Shown here: in pieces, positions 25,214-32,532 of the stretch
Position numbering within the stretch: position 1 is the first letter of the stretch
Layout: every line of letters starts with the position of its first letter
NCBI GenBank assembly: GCA_037200975.1
Contig: JBBCGI010000001.1
Span: forward strand, 1,922,001 to 1,986,000
Reading direction: 5' to 3'
Origin: Pseudomonadota bacterium
GTDB lineage: Bacteria; Pseudomonadota; Gammaproteobacteria; Steroidobacterales; Steroidobacteraceae
Length of the DNA stretch: 64,000 bases
Translations under genes and position numbers: made by a program
The notes under the pieces: model-generated
Database searches by the model: none
What the model was told of the DNA's origin: nothing
The model's input: only the letters and a program-made list of their open reading frames with translations

Positions 25214-25807
25214 ATGGATTTCATTCCAGGCGGCGAACTGACGCGCCGCATCCGTGCAGGAGATGTCTCGGCTGAAAGCGAGCTGATTCGTCAGTTCGAG
25301 CCCGGCCTGCGCGTGTTATTGCGCCGCCGTACGGGAGGCGACCACGGCCTGCTGCAGGACCTGGTCCAGGACACGCTGTTAGTCGTCATCCAGCGCCTGC
25401 GGGGCCCCGGCATCGAAGATCCCCTGAAGCTGGCGGCTTTCGCCGCCCAAACCGCAAGAAATCTCGCGATTGCGTCACTGCGGAAGGCCGAGCGACAGAA
25501 GACAGACATCGATAGCGATCTTACAGATCGCAATCCCGACCCGTCGCAGGGCGTAGATGGACTTGCGGCGGATCTCGAGGCGGCCCTGGCGGTACGTGCG
25601 CTACTGCGCGAATTACCACATGCCCGGGATCGCCTGATGCTCAAGCGGTTCTATCTAGACGACCATGACAAGGAACTCATCTGCGAAGAGATGGACTTAA
25701 GCGAGGCGGCGTTCAACCAGGCGTTGAGCCGTGCGCGCAGGCGGTTTCGGCAAATCCTCGAGGAACGGGGGTTCGCCAAGCGCGACCTGCTGAGTCTCGG
25801 CCTATGA
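25214..25807 (+). CDS. ECF-type RNA polymerase sigma factor
   Basis: A 197-residue protein with region 2 (about 20-95, including DLVQDTLLVVIQRL) and region 4 (about 130-190, with MDLSEAAFNQALSRARRRFRQIL). A AAGGGG ribosome site precedes the ATG. Its TGA overlaps the next start (ATGA, 25804-25807), so sigma and anti-sigma are translationally coupled. The group to which it belongs cannot be named from sequence alone. Confidence 0.88.
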   Translation: MDFIPGGELTRRIRAGDVSAESELIRQFEPGLRVLLRRRTGGDHGLLQDLVQDTLLVVIQRLRGPGIEDPLKLAAFAAQTARNLAIASLRKAERQKTDIDSDLTDRNPDPSQGVDGLAADLEAALAVRALLRELPHARDRLMLKRFYLDDHDKELICEEMDLSEAAFNQALSRARRRFRQILEERGFAKRDLLSLGL

Positions 25808-26430
25808 ATCAGCAACAAATTGAACAATACGTCGCTGGAAAGATGAGCCAGGCGCAAGCCGAGGCCTTCGAACACTATTGCCTGGAAAATCCCGAGTTCG
25901 CGAAGCAGGTCGAATTCGAACAGCGGCTCAAGACCGGCCTCGCGCAGGTGGCGCGGGGCTCGACCGCGGAGTTCGTGCGCTCTAACCACCCGATGCGCTG
26001 GCGGCTGGCCGCGGCCGCCGCGGTGTTGCTGTGCCTGGCGGCGGGTTTCTACGCGTTCCGCGCGAATCCGGACGGTGCGCAGCCGTTGCTTGCCGCGATC
26101 GAAGGCAAGAGCCCGCACGTCGGCACGACGATGCGGCTCGCGATGGTGCGCGGCGCCGATACCGCGCCGGCGCTGCAAAAAGGCCTGGTGCGCGTCGAGA
26201 TCGTGGGGCTGTTTGACACCGGTGTGCACTACGTCGTGTCGCTCGATCGCCTCGAACCGAAGAAAGAAGTCGATACGCTGGCAACGCTGTATGCGCTGCA
26301 CGCCAGCTCCCCCATGAGCCTCGAAGTCGTGATCGACAGCGACCGGCTCGAACGGGGTGCCTACTCGCTGCGGGTACGCAAGCAATCCTCCGACGAAGAA
26401 CCCCTGGATTTCGGCTTCGTCAAATTCTGA
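25804..26430 (+). CDS. Anti-sigma-factor-like membrane protein
   Basis: A 208-residue protein with a helical cytoplasmic N-terminus (about 1-60), one transmembrane segment (about 63-82, LAAAAAVLLCLAAGFYAF) and a periplasmic domain of about 120 residues. It lacks a clear HxxxCxxC zinc finger; only HYC is seen at 20-22. Coupling to the sigma gene makes an anti-sigma role likely. Confidence 0.72.
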   Translation: MNQQQIEQYVAGKMSQAQAEAFEHYCLENPEFAKQVEFEQRLKTGLAQVARGSTAEFVRSNHPMRWRLAAAAAVLLCLAAGFYAFRANPDGAQPLLAAIEGKSPHVGTTMRLAMVRGADTAPALQKGLVRVEIVGLFDTGVHYVVSLDRLEPKKEVDTLATLYALHASSPMSLEVVIDSDRLERGAYSLRVRKQSSDEEPLDFGFVKF

Positions 26431-26508
26431 TTCCCCGGTGTCAGGGTCTCGCGGCTCGTCGCAGAAGACTGACTGCGGCTGATCATCCGAAACAGCCGAG
26501 GGGTTCCC

Positions 26509-27627
26509 ATGACGATTGCCGCGGCCCCTGAGGGCCGCTTCGGCGCAGCTTTCGAATGGCTCGGTGTGGAGCGCGCGTGGACCAGGACGCGCGGCAGCAG
26601 CGCCGTGATCATCGGCATCATCGACGCGGGCGTGCAGGTCGATCACCCGCTGATCGGGCCGAACATCCATCGCGACATGGCGGCGCTGCCGGTGCGCGGC
26701 GAACATGAAATCGCCGGCACACATGCGGCGGGAGTGGCGGCGGGACGGTCGAGCGACGTCGAGCGCTTTTCGGGCGTCGCGCCGGAGGCACGCATCCTGC
26801 CGGTCCGGTTCGCCTGCGGTGCGGGTCCGCAGGCGCTCGATCTTTCGCACGCCATCGAATACGCCGTCGAGATGGGCGCGTGCATCATCAACATCGCACC
26901 CGGTGTGGAGCTCACGCTGCCGGCCGTGCGGCGCGCGATCCAATACGCCGCCGCGCGTAATGCGCTGGTGGTGTGCGCCGCTTCCGAACACTGTCCGGCG
27001 CCGTTGGCGGGGGACGAAGACGATCCGGTGCCCAACCAGATCGCGGTGCTGTCCGTCGACGAGGCTGGCACGCCGCTGTCCGGCTTTCCGGCGGCCGGCG
27101 CCGATCTGGCCGCCCCCGGTTTTGCGCACGTGCCGGCCTGGCGCGGCAGCGGACACACACGATTGTCGAATGCCGCCATCGGCGCGCCGTACGTGAGCGG
27201 TTGTGCCGCGCTGGTGAAAGCGCTGAATCCCGGCTGGGGATATCACGAGATCAAGGAGCATCTGGTCGTCAGCGGCACGCCGGATCCGGCGCTCGCCGGC
27301 AGTTGCCGGGGCGGCCGCGTGCTCAATGTGGCGAATGCGGTGCTCGGGCCGATCGAGCTCGCCACCGAAGGGCCGCTCGATTGGTCCTCGCTCAACGACG
27401 CCACCGTCACCTGGCGGATGCGTTACGCGTCGGCGCTGTGCGTGAACGCCGTGGCGTTGTTCAAACCGCACGGCGACGAACATTGGCGCGAGCTCGCCCA
27501 TGCTCGCGCGGGCGTCGGGAAGATGACCATCCCCGCCGCGGTGTTACGCCGCTCCTCGGGCCTGCTGCGCGTCGCCTGCCGCGAATCGAACTTCCGCAGC
27601 GATGAGATCGCGGTGACGATTAGATAG
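26509..27627 (+). CDS. Subtilase-fold (S8) protein lacking the catalytic serine
   Basis: A 372-residue protein with an S8 domain (about 25-280) and a C-terminal beta-type domain (about 285-372). The Asp motif IIDAGV (Asp39) and the His motif AGTHAAG (His72) are present. The Ser motif, normally GTSMAAP, reads NAAIGAP (221-227), so the nucleophile is Ala223, and the oxyanion Asn position reads SE (159-160). No signal peptide is seen. It is the third gene after ECF sigma and anti-sigma, 78 bases on, with GAGGGG before the ATG. A scaffolding or sensing role is more likely than proteolysis. Confidence 0.82.
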   Translation: MTIAAAPEGRFGAAFEWLGVERAWTRTRGSSAVIIGIIDAGVQVDHPLIGPNIHRDMAALPVRGEHEIAGTHAAGVAAGRSSDVERFSGVAPEARILPVRFACGAGPQALDLSHAIEYAVEMGACIINIAPGVELTLPAVRRAIQYAAARNALVVCAASEHCPAPLAGDEDDPVPNQIAVLSVDEAGTPLSGFPAAGADLAAPGFAHVPAWRGSGHTRLSNAAIGAPYVSGCAALVKALNPGWGYHEIKEHLVVSGTPDPALAGSCRGGRVLNVANAVLGPIELATEGPLDWSSLNDATVTWRMRYASALCVNAVALFKPHGDEHWRELAHARAGVGKMTIPAAVLRRSSGLLRVACRESNFRSDEIAVTIR

Positions 27628-27630
27628 AGC

Positions 27631-27716
27631 GGCGCCGGGGTGCAATTCTCGTAATTGCGCCGGCGCTGGCGCGTGCAAGAACGACGACTCAATTACGAGA
27701 ATTGCACCCCGGCACC
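27631..27716. repeat. Inverted-repeat element, GGTGCCGGG superfamily, type B (copy 1)
   Basis: 26-bp arms at 27631-27656 and 27691-27716 with one mismatch (GGCGCC against GGTGCC at the tip), around 34 bases. The core is GGGGTGCAATTCTCGTAATT. It fills the gap between the convergent subtilase-fold gene and the receiver gene. Confidence 0.85.
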
Positions 27717-27729
27717 ACTCTCCCCTCTC

Positions 27730-28092
27730 CTACCGCGCCAACACATCGGAGATCGTGCGGATCAGCAGCTCCGGCGAACACGGTTTCGCCAGCACGGCGT
27801 CGAACAACTCGCGCGAGCCCGAGATCACGCTCGGTTGCGCGGTCTGCGCGATCACGGGGATGCGGCGCAGATCCGGTTCGTCGCGCAGGACCCGTGTCGC
27901 GGTCAACCCGTCCATGTTCGGCATGAACATGTCCATGATGATGACCGAAGGTTTGTTCACGCGCGCCGCCTGCAACGCTTCGATGCCATCGCGCGCCTCG
28001 AACACCTCGAAGCCCACCGACTGCAGCACCATCGACATCACGTCGCGCGCGTCGTCATAGTCTTCCGCGACCAGAACCTTGGTGGCCGACAT
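27730..28092 (-). CDS. Receiver-only response regulator
   Basis: A 120-residue CheY-like receiver. The acidic pair is VAEDYDD (about 8-14), the phospho-acceptor Asp is in IIMDMFMPNMDG (Asp54 region), and the Lys is in LAKPCSPE. There is no output domain. Its ATG directly abuts the TGA of the histidine kinase gene (28093), so the pair is co-translated. Confidence 0.9.
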   Translation of the reverse strand: MSATKVLVAEDYDDARDVMSMVLQSVGFEVFEARDGIEALQAARVNKPSVIIMDMFMPNMDGLTATRVLRDEPDLRRIPVIAQTAQPSVISGSRELFDAVLAKPCSPELLIRTISDVLAR

Positions 28093-29373
28093 TCAATGCA
28101 CCGGGGTATCGGCGCGACGTGCCTGCTGCATCAGTTCGCCGCCAGCATTCGCCTGGTCGGCCACGGCGAATTCCAGCCGTATCGTCGTTCCCTGGTTCGG
28201 CCCGGCGCTGAACGCATTCACGGTCCCGCCGTGGAGCGCCATGATCTCGCGCACGATCGTGAGCCCCAGACCCAGCCCACCCTGGCGGCGCGTCAATCCC
28301 ACGTCTCCCTGCCGAAAGCGCTCGAACATGTGCGGCAGGAAATCGGCCGGCACGCCAGCACCGTTGTCCGTCACTTCGATCACGGCGCGCGAACCATCGC
28401 GCATGACGTGGACGTTCACATTGCCGCCCTTGCCGGTGAACTTGATGCCGTTGGCGATCACGTTCAGCAACACCTGCTGCAGCCGGTCGGAATCGCCCCA
28501 TACATGAAGCCGATCCGTCGCATCGAGCGACAACTTGATGGATTTCTCGCGCGCCGATGGTTGCGCCAGTTCGACCGCCGCGGCCGCCAGCGCACCGATC
28601 TCGACCAGCTTCGATTCGATGGAGAGTTTCCCGGCCGCGGCGCGCGACACGTCCAGCAGGTCGTCCACCAGGCGGCTCTGCAACGCCGTGTTGCGTTCGA
28701 TCACCTCGAGCGCCTTGTCGAGAATCGACGGCTGGATGCTCTTGCCCTGCTTGAGCTGCCACAACCAGTTGTTGATCACGTGCAGCGGCGTGCGCAACTC
28801 GTGCGACAGCAGCGCGAGGAATTCGTCCTTGAGCCGGCTCGCACTCTCGGCGCTGGCGCGCGCTTCCCGCTCCTGGCGCAAGGCCGCCTTGAGCTCGGCA
28901 TCGAGCTGCACGTTGGAAAGCGCCAGCGCGGCGGCGTCCGCGAGGCTTTGCAATACACCGATTTCCGCCGGCGTCGCGGCGTGATAACGCGCCCAGTACG
29001 CGCCGATGGCGGCGATCGGATCTTCGCGACGGACCGGCACCATGACCAGGCTCTTCACGAACGTCGGGCGATAGGCGTCATGCGGAATTCGCTCATCGAC
29101 ATAAATGTCGGGGACGACCGCGTGCGTCTTGTTGAGCATCACCCAGCCGGATATGCAGGCTTCGATCGGGAAACGCCTGCCCTTCCACAGCGGCGCGATG
29201 GCATCTTCATCGGCGTAGTAGCAGTGATCTCCCTGCTTGAGGACGAAGGTCACGCCGTCGGCTTCACTGAGATCGCGCGCCGCCTTGCGAACGATGGCGC
29301 AAACAGAAGCCTCGTCTCGCGCGGAAGCGAGCGCAGTGACTGCATCGAGAAGTGGATCTCGCACGAGCTGCAT
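28093..29373 (-). CDS. GAF-domain sensor histidine kinase (soluble)
   Basis: About 426 residues: a GAF domain (about 15-165), a coiled linker (170-205), a HisKA box ALLSHELRTPLHVI and an HATPase domain with NVIANGIKFT, DNGAGVP, FERFRQGD and GGLGLGLTIV. No transmembrane segment. The ATG at 29373 (MQLVRDPLL) is the start that fits the domain. Its partner is the receiver-only regulator immediately downstream. Confidence 0.88.
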   Translation of the reverse strand: MQLVRDPLLDAVTALASARDEASVCAIVRKAARDLSEADGVTFVLKQGDHCYYADEDAIAPLWKGRRFPIEACISGWVMLNKTHAVVPDIYVDERIPHDAYRPTFVKSLVMVPVRREDPIAAIGAYWARYHAATPAEIGVLQSLADAAALALSNVQLDAELKAALRQEREARASAESASRLKDEFLALLSHELRTPLHVINNWLWQLKQGKSIQPSILDKALEVIERNTALQSRLVDDLLDVSRAAAGKLSIESKLVEIGALAAAAVELAQPSAREKSIKLSLDATDRLHVWGDSDRLQQVLLNVIANGIKFTGKGGNVNVHVMRDGSRAVIEVTDNGAGVPADFLPHMFERFRQGDVGLTRRQGGLGLGLTIVREIMALHGGTVNAFSAGPNQGTTIRLEFAVADQANAGGELMQQARRADTPVH

Positions 29374-29435
29374 GACCCTTAGGATGCCTTTGTTGCGACG
29401 CGTCGGCAATCCGCACCTTCCACCCAAACTGAAGT

Positions 29436-29507
29436 GGTGCCGGGGTGCAATTGTCGTAATTAGATTTGAGCCCTTCGTCTAAATTACGACAATTGCACCC
29501 CGGCACC
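29436..29507. repeat. Inverted-repeat element, GGTGCCGGG superfamily, type B (copy 2)
   Basis: Perfect 26-bp arms at 29436-29461 and 29482-29507 around 20 bases; core GGGGTGCAATTGTCGTAATT. It lies 62 bases upstream of the GAF kinase start and before the divergent PRC-barrel gene, so this copy is at gene 5' ends. Confidence 0.88.
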
Positions 29508-32466: not shown

Positions 32467-32532
32467 GGGTGCCGGGGTGCAATTGTCGTAATTAGGCCTG
32501 ACTCTAATTACGACAATTGCACCCCGGCACCC
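32467..32532. repeat. Inverted-repeat element, GGTGCCGGG superfamily, type B (copy 3)
   Basis: Perfect 29-bp arms at 32467-32495 and 32504-32532 around only 8 bases; core GGGGTGCAATTGTCGTAATT as in copy 2. It fills the gap between the convergent regulator (stop 32463) and the Gly/His-tailed protein (stop 32542). Confidence 0.9.

Follow-up and report, generated by a model that had tools for sequence, protein, structure and literature searches.

The locus described here lies in a stretch of 64,000 nucleotides (the window: positions 1,922,001 to 1,986,000 of contig JBBCGI010000001.1, assembly GCA_037200975.1) from a bacterium of the family Steroidobacteraceae, whose genome we call G000. It comprises genes for an extracytoplasmic function (ECF) sigma factor, an anti-sigma-like membrane protein and a protein of the subtilase family (peptidase family S8), which appears to have lost nearly all of its active site and is under purifying selection. 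A preliminary description of this DNA had placed three such genes here, and the open reading frames for the sigma factor, the anti-sigma-like protein and the S8 protein are indeed all present:

25214 to 25807, plus strand: ECF sigma factor, P0001, 197 amino acids (Pfam, TIGR02937 and orthologs)
25804 to 26430, plus strand: anti-sigma-like membrane protein, P0002, 208 amino acids (4-base overlap with the sigma gene, hydropathy and predicted layout)
26509 to 27627, plus strand: pseudo-subtilase, P0003, 372 amino acids (Peptidase_S8 match)

P0001 exceeded the cut-offs of the TIGR02937 sigma70-ECF model (56.1 bits) and of Pfam Sigma70_r2 (32.1 bits, cut-off 24), and scored 23 bits (E 6.2e-5) with Sigma70_r4_2, just below the Pfam cut-off of 25.7. 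Judged from TIGR02937 and region 2 in a protein of about 200 residues, it is an ECF sigma factor. The second gene, whose four-base overlap with the first reads ATGA, has the layout of a membrane anti-sigma: a small gene after the sigma gene, encoding a helical N-terminus (about residues 1-65), a single transmembrane segment (about 67-87; hydropathy of 1.88 in the 19-residue windows beginning at 67 and 68) and a beta-rich C-terminal domain (about 97-207). The family alignment held 13 sequences, and the predicted structure consisted of helices and strands, with a mean predicted local distance difference test score (pLDDT) of 59.9, which is also the confidence behind the helical N-terminus. No Pfam model matched P0002 above a cut-off, and the curated anti-sigma model NF052375 gave just 19.4 bits against a cut-off of 100, so that a recognised anti-sigma domain was not found; a homolog (L102) likewise stayed below the cut-off of 25 for DUF4880, with 19.1 bits. 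Among the Foldseek matches listed for the P0002 model, template modelling scores by query length did not exceed 0.31, and we make no claim about the fold. Layout and gene position suggest that P0002 is a membrane anti-sigma factor.

P0003 matched Peptidase_S8 (PF00082) over residues 31-255 with 78.1 bits (cut-off 21.8) and the mycosin model TIGR03921 with 106.6 bits, under its cut-off of 278.75; in the PDB it matched AK.1 protease, thermitase and subtilisins. By this similarity across the catalytic domain, P0003 is a member of family S8 by descent, with the S8 domain at about residues 20-275 and a C-terminal extension at about 280-372. We found no signal peptide or prodomain in it: the S8 similarity begins at residue 19-31, and the open frame of 384 amino acids extends upstream by 12 residues at most. 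Hydropathy revealed no hydrophobic leader in P0003 or in its ortholog from the congener G003, and no clear transmembrane segment in P0003, which is most likely cytoplasmic. Without a leader or a clear transmembrane segment, it could reach only the N-terminal ~65 residues of P0002, taken as cytoplasmic, or the sigma factor. Several ECF-linked S8 proteins start with signal- or lipoprotein-like segments (assigned partly by eye).

The active-site positions were mapped by alignment to PDB thermitase and AK.1 protease. The residue roles are those which we take subtilisin to have, including the first His of HGTH as the catalytic one. The alignments place them as follows:

26623 to 26625, plus strand: Asp39, the sole triad residue retained
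26713 to 26715, plus strand: Ala69 where subtilisin has the catalytic His64; Pro in the ortholog
26986 to 26988, plus strand: Glu160 where subtilisin has the oxyanion Asn155; Ala in the ortholog
27175 to 27177, plus strand: Ala223 where subtilisin has the nucleophile Ser221; Glu in the ortholog

At the Asp, His, Asn and Ser positions P0003 thus reads D-A-E-A and its ortholog D-P-A-E. The alignments confirm what the preliminary description had proposed about three of these, namely that Ala223 replaces the nucleophile Ser, that the oxyanion position (Glu160) is not Asn, and that Asp39, which aligns with the catalytic Asp, is intact. It had also regarded His72 as intact, but the alignments put this residue on the second His of HGTH, and Ala69 occupies the catalytic position. 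As far as the alignments tell, P0003 is more thoroughly dead than had been supposed: of the Asp-His-Ser triad and oxyanion Asn of an active S8 peptidase only the Asp is there, and the protein is probably catalytically inactive. It could still be a peptidase working through other residues, e.g., His72, since both Asp39 and His72 are conserved in the two orthologs. However, in both orthologs the nucleophile is replaced by a residue other than Ser or Cys (Ala in one, Glu in the other) and the oxyanion Asn is missing, and we regard residual activity of this kind as very improbable.

The one ortholog found (L031, L063 in G003, same genus) is 67% identical to P0003 over the full length. It too is devoid of the Ser (Glu) and the His (Pro), through other substitutions, so the Ser loss is shared by the one homolog of this kind. 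The possibility of a single degenerate or sequencing-altered copy, which had been raised at the outset, fails on the same observation: the loss recurs in a second assembly, from a different species, with different replacements. The latter make a sequencing error very unlikely, and, since both assemblies depart from an active peptidase at three catalytic positions and no point was found in its favour, an assembly or sequencing error in an ordinary protease is for practical purposes refuted. We compared 72 distinct S8 proteins (101 matching frames minus duplicates and fragments). Asp-His-Asn-Ser was present in 60, the triad without the Asn in 7, and the P0003 pair lacked His, Asn and Ser; 3 were truncated or taken as misaligned at one site or more. 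The pair are the only members of the set without the catalytic His and the only two clearly without the Ser. Two more rows, L021 and L064, have a misalignment or truncation at the Ser position; L021, which reads DHNL, was taken as a misalignment within a split domain.

Full-length orthologs of P0003 are rare. They were found in 2 of 98 relatives (some S8 match in 26 of them) and in 2 of 217 family genomes, the window's own genome being included both times; two further matches in the family were partial (60.1 and 64.6 bits). Among the candidates scored in a class sample of 369 genomes (up to 5 per genome), the window's own P0003 was the only one, the next best match having 91.5 bits, and a scan of genome contigs returned the G003 ortholog and one ordinary planctomycete subtilase. 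Up to 9 candidates per genome were scored in the family search and up to 10 in the sigma search of the order described below.

We compared G000 with G003 by the Nei-Gojobori method, using our own script. The ratio of nonsynonymous to synonymous substitution rates (dN/dS) was 0.28 for P0003, 0.29 for the anti-sigma gene, 0.10 for the sigma gene and 0.27 for a neighbouring kinase gene, with dS of about 0.8-1.1 (about 0.96 for P0003). The P0003 frame is intact and free of stops in both genomes, and the orthologs share long invariant blocks, e.g., residues 226-252 and some stretches within the C-terminal extension. P0003 is under purifying selection. In 9-residue windows at the S1 wall (at the position we take it to occupy), Asn and Ser positions, 7 of 27 residues are identical versus 66% domain-wide, and 0.8% of random triples were as low; with the Asp and His positions added, 19 of 45 residues in the five windows are identical (3.2% as low). 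Read from these alignments, P0003 is conserved as a protein, but not at its cleft. The poorly conserved cleft, together with the absence of P0003 from the congener G001, would suit a remnant of an ECF-linked protease that is decaying and heading for loss. This explanation seems improbable to us in view of the intact frames in both genomes, the dN/dS of 0.28 at that dS and the long invariant blocks.

We searched 296 genomes of the order and obtained 31 P0001-like matches in 28 genomes; 30 neighbourhoods were used and one contig-end case was dropped. An S8 gene lay within 6 kb of the sigma gene in 11 of the 30, P0003 among them. Two of the 11 belong to the window's own genome, and without that genome the count is 9 of 28. 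For CHAT protease genes and a distance of 8 kb the count was 14 of 30, and one or the other kind of gene was present in 19 of 30; in the remaining 11 neither was seen, with flanks that are short in some stretches. The presence of CHAT was confirmed by Pfam in L102, L162, L165 and L174 and elsewhere by a model built from those four; the CHAT genes of the second copy in G000 lay outside the stretch first examined and were found later. S8 genes occur in 137 of 148 genomes of the order, 1 to 15 each among the matches listed, and a rough estimate, not a computed control, puts the chance expectation of S8 adjacency at well under one of the 30. The order and strand of the S8 gene relative to the sigma gene vary among loci, and the order CHAT, small protein, S8, ECF, anti-sigma recurs (L076/L182, L102, L103, L104, L165, L174). 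The second ECF system of G000 itself (L182; contig C1, about 2122575-2133204) has two CHAT genes, a small protein, S8, sigma and anti-sigma, its S8 protein keeping the triad, with Ser at the oxyanion Asn position. In a second locus type (L066, L069, L071 and L181, in G006, G007, G065 and G092) an S8 gene is close to an ECF sigma gene, next to what we read by eye as a TorF-like porin and a zinc-finger anti-sigma; three of these four S8 proteins lack the oxyanion Asn.

ECF factors are usually described as being controlled through cutting of the anti-sigma or its binding by dedicated partners. We tentatively favour the reading that P0003 is a cytoplasmic pseudo-subtilase, kept by selection as the third gene of an operon of ECF sigma factor and membrane anti-sigma, and acting through binding. 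Its ancestor would have been an exported S8 protein of the kind found repeatedly next to sigma genes of this family, in many cases together with CHAT proteases. In such loci a protease may be expected to act on the anti-sigma from the periplasmic side. The P0003 line would then have lost the signal peptide, the prodomain, the catalytic His and Ser and the oxyanion Asn. We propose that P0003 binds either the anti-sigma, at its cytoplasmic N-terminus, or the sigma factor, and that this contact may tune sigma release without cutting. Within this reading, we infer transcription as an operon, location in the cell, descent, binding partner and direction of effect.

Several observations weigh against this interpretation. 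Descent from an ECF-linked S8 protein is suggested by one weak fork with L165 in a quick tree (SH-like approximate likelihood ratio test, SH-aLRT, 89; stem 1.7). The genus's own second S8 copy, considered as the source of P0003, was not supported, as it groups elsewhere in that tree. The AlphaFold2 model of P0003, built from three sequences, was poor (mean pLDDT 38.3) and was not used. The third gene follows the second after a gap of 78 bases and is not coupled to it. G001 (93% complete) carries in synteny a sigma gene 83% identical and an anti-sigma gene 54% identical to those of the window, with the S8 gene absent: the next gene, on the opposite strand, ends 48 bases past the anti-sigma gene, and with all 14 candidates of this genome scored, no S8 ortholog was found, the best match covering residues 19-83 (E 9.2e-4). 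P0003 is thus not a required third part, and the sigma/anti-sigma pair presumably works alone in G001. The linkage on which the preliminary description had relied consequently holds in part. It is present in both P0003-bearing genomes, as G003 has sigma (84% identical to P0001), anti-sigma and S8 genes in the same order as G000, but these are only two of the three genomes with this pair. In G002 (67% complete) only a second, paralogous sigma gene was seen. A concatenated five-gene tree did not settle the order of G000, G001 and G003 (46/54), so that gain of P0003 is indistinguishable from loss.

The switch without P0003 in G001 is also what one would expect if P0003 were an output, that is, a member of the sigma regulon whose transcription accompanies or closely follows that of the regulator and whose dead fold binds an unrelated target. 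ECF factors commonly control their own operon, and the 78-base gap could hold a separate promoter. However, the recurrence of S8 genes near this sigma family (11 of 30) suggests a signalling role over chance cargo, and the variable order and strand fit either explanation. We consider the output explanation a real possibility, although a somewhat doubtful one. Upstream of the sigma gene, a promoter common to three genomes was sought by alignment and none was clear.

The favoured reading, that of a dead subtilase acting on its operon partners, has a broader form, in which ECF-linked subtilases drift repeatedly from cutting to binding. A sigma gene was seen near 19 of the S8 proteins, 9 of which are without the oxyanion Asn and 10 of which keep it. 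Of the 53 with no sigma gene in view, 52 have the Asn and 1 has a gap, so that every Asn-less protein of the set is ECF-linked; this also counts for the favoured reading. The nine amount to three clades, the sample was partly picked by sigma neighbourhood, the sigma model was derived from the same loci, and most unlinked loci had a flank of about 1.5 kb, which weakens the trend; a tie between Asn loss and ECF linkage is a lead, not proof. With the Asn lost in two other clades, P0003, which lacks an export signal and has lost almost all of its active site, might be a cytoplasmic co-anti-sigma or anti-anti-sigma that acts from the opposite side of the membrane. We hold this broader form to be rather unlikely. 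In either form, a protease homolog that has kept its operon place after losing its chemistry would be an example of conversion from signalling protease to binding protein, a step that can be tested on the series from intact through Asn-less to fully dead proteins at related ECF loci.

Other features of the surroundings are recorded here. A block right after the anti-sigma stop (about 26438-26468 in the window, about 9838-9872 in L101) is partly conserved in all three congeners, including G001, where no S8 gene follows. At 27730-29427 of the window, on the minus strand, genes read by eye as histidine kinase-like and response regulator-like lie between two repeat copies; such genes follow the anti-sigma gene in G001 (L101) and are not at the corresponding place in G003 (L063). 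The repeat, palindromic and REPIN-like, occurs at 27626-27721 (directly after the S8 stop), 29433-29507 and 32468-32531. It consists of 26-mer copies that face one another, mostly at a distance of a few tens of bases. With as many as 2 mismatches allowed, the whole genome has 85 matches, 43 of them forward and 42 reverse, versus 0 for a reversed control.

Among the matches listed by a literature search, judged by title and start of abstract, no paper on a dead subtilase within an ECF operon was found. The preliminary description had supposed that a pseudo-subtilase as third part of an ECF switch was undescribed. A subtilase beside an ECF/anti-sigma pair recurs in the order and has a parallel in the ECF54 review (PMC8999054), so that only the dead, leaderless version looks new. 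ECF54 is described there as having conserved subtilase, carboxypeptidase and CHAT neighbours, with proteolytic control without an anti-sigma proposed. The likeness lies in the subtilase and CHAT genes adjoining an ECF sigma gene, whereas our locus has an anti-sigma-like gene and a dead subtilase. The CHAT-S8-ECF cassettes of the order share with our locus a related anti-sigma, an adjacent S8 gene and related sigma factors, which are 43-46% (genus copies), 41% (L165) or 34% (L174) identical; they differ in that the S8 gene is upstream of the sigma gene, its product in several cases looks exported, and the full triad is retained in all, the four genus copies being without the oxyanion Asn. In Arabidopsis, SBT5.2(b), an intracellular subtilase form, retains MYB30 at endosomes independently of protease activity (PMC5074803). 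It resembles the role proposed for P0003 in controlling a transcription factor through binding, and differs in being a plant protein made from an alternative transcript of a secreted-subtilase gene, with no sigma factor involved. Finally, CspC of Clostridioides difficile has a subtilisin fold with D105 kept and T170 and G485 at the His and Ser positions, the same two triad positions that P0003 has lost, and both CspC and CspA are pseudoproteases that are regulatory without proteolysis (PMC6636752). No Csp protein was among the best 60 of 111 PDB matches to P0003. The Csp system serves spore germination, with an uncleaved prodomain and active CspB as partner (PMC6636752), whereas P0003 has no prodomain and is the mate of an ECF pair. 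By analogy, the best reading is nevertheless that P0003 would act in the way CspC does, by binding and not by cutting.
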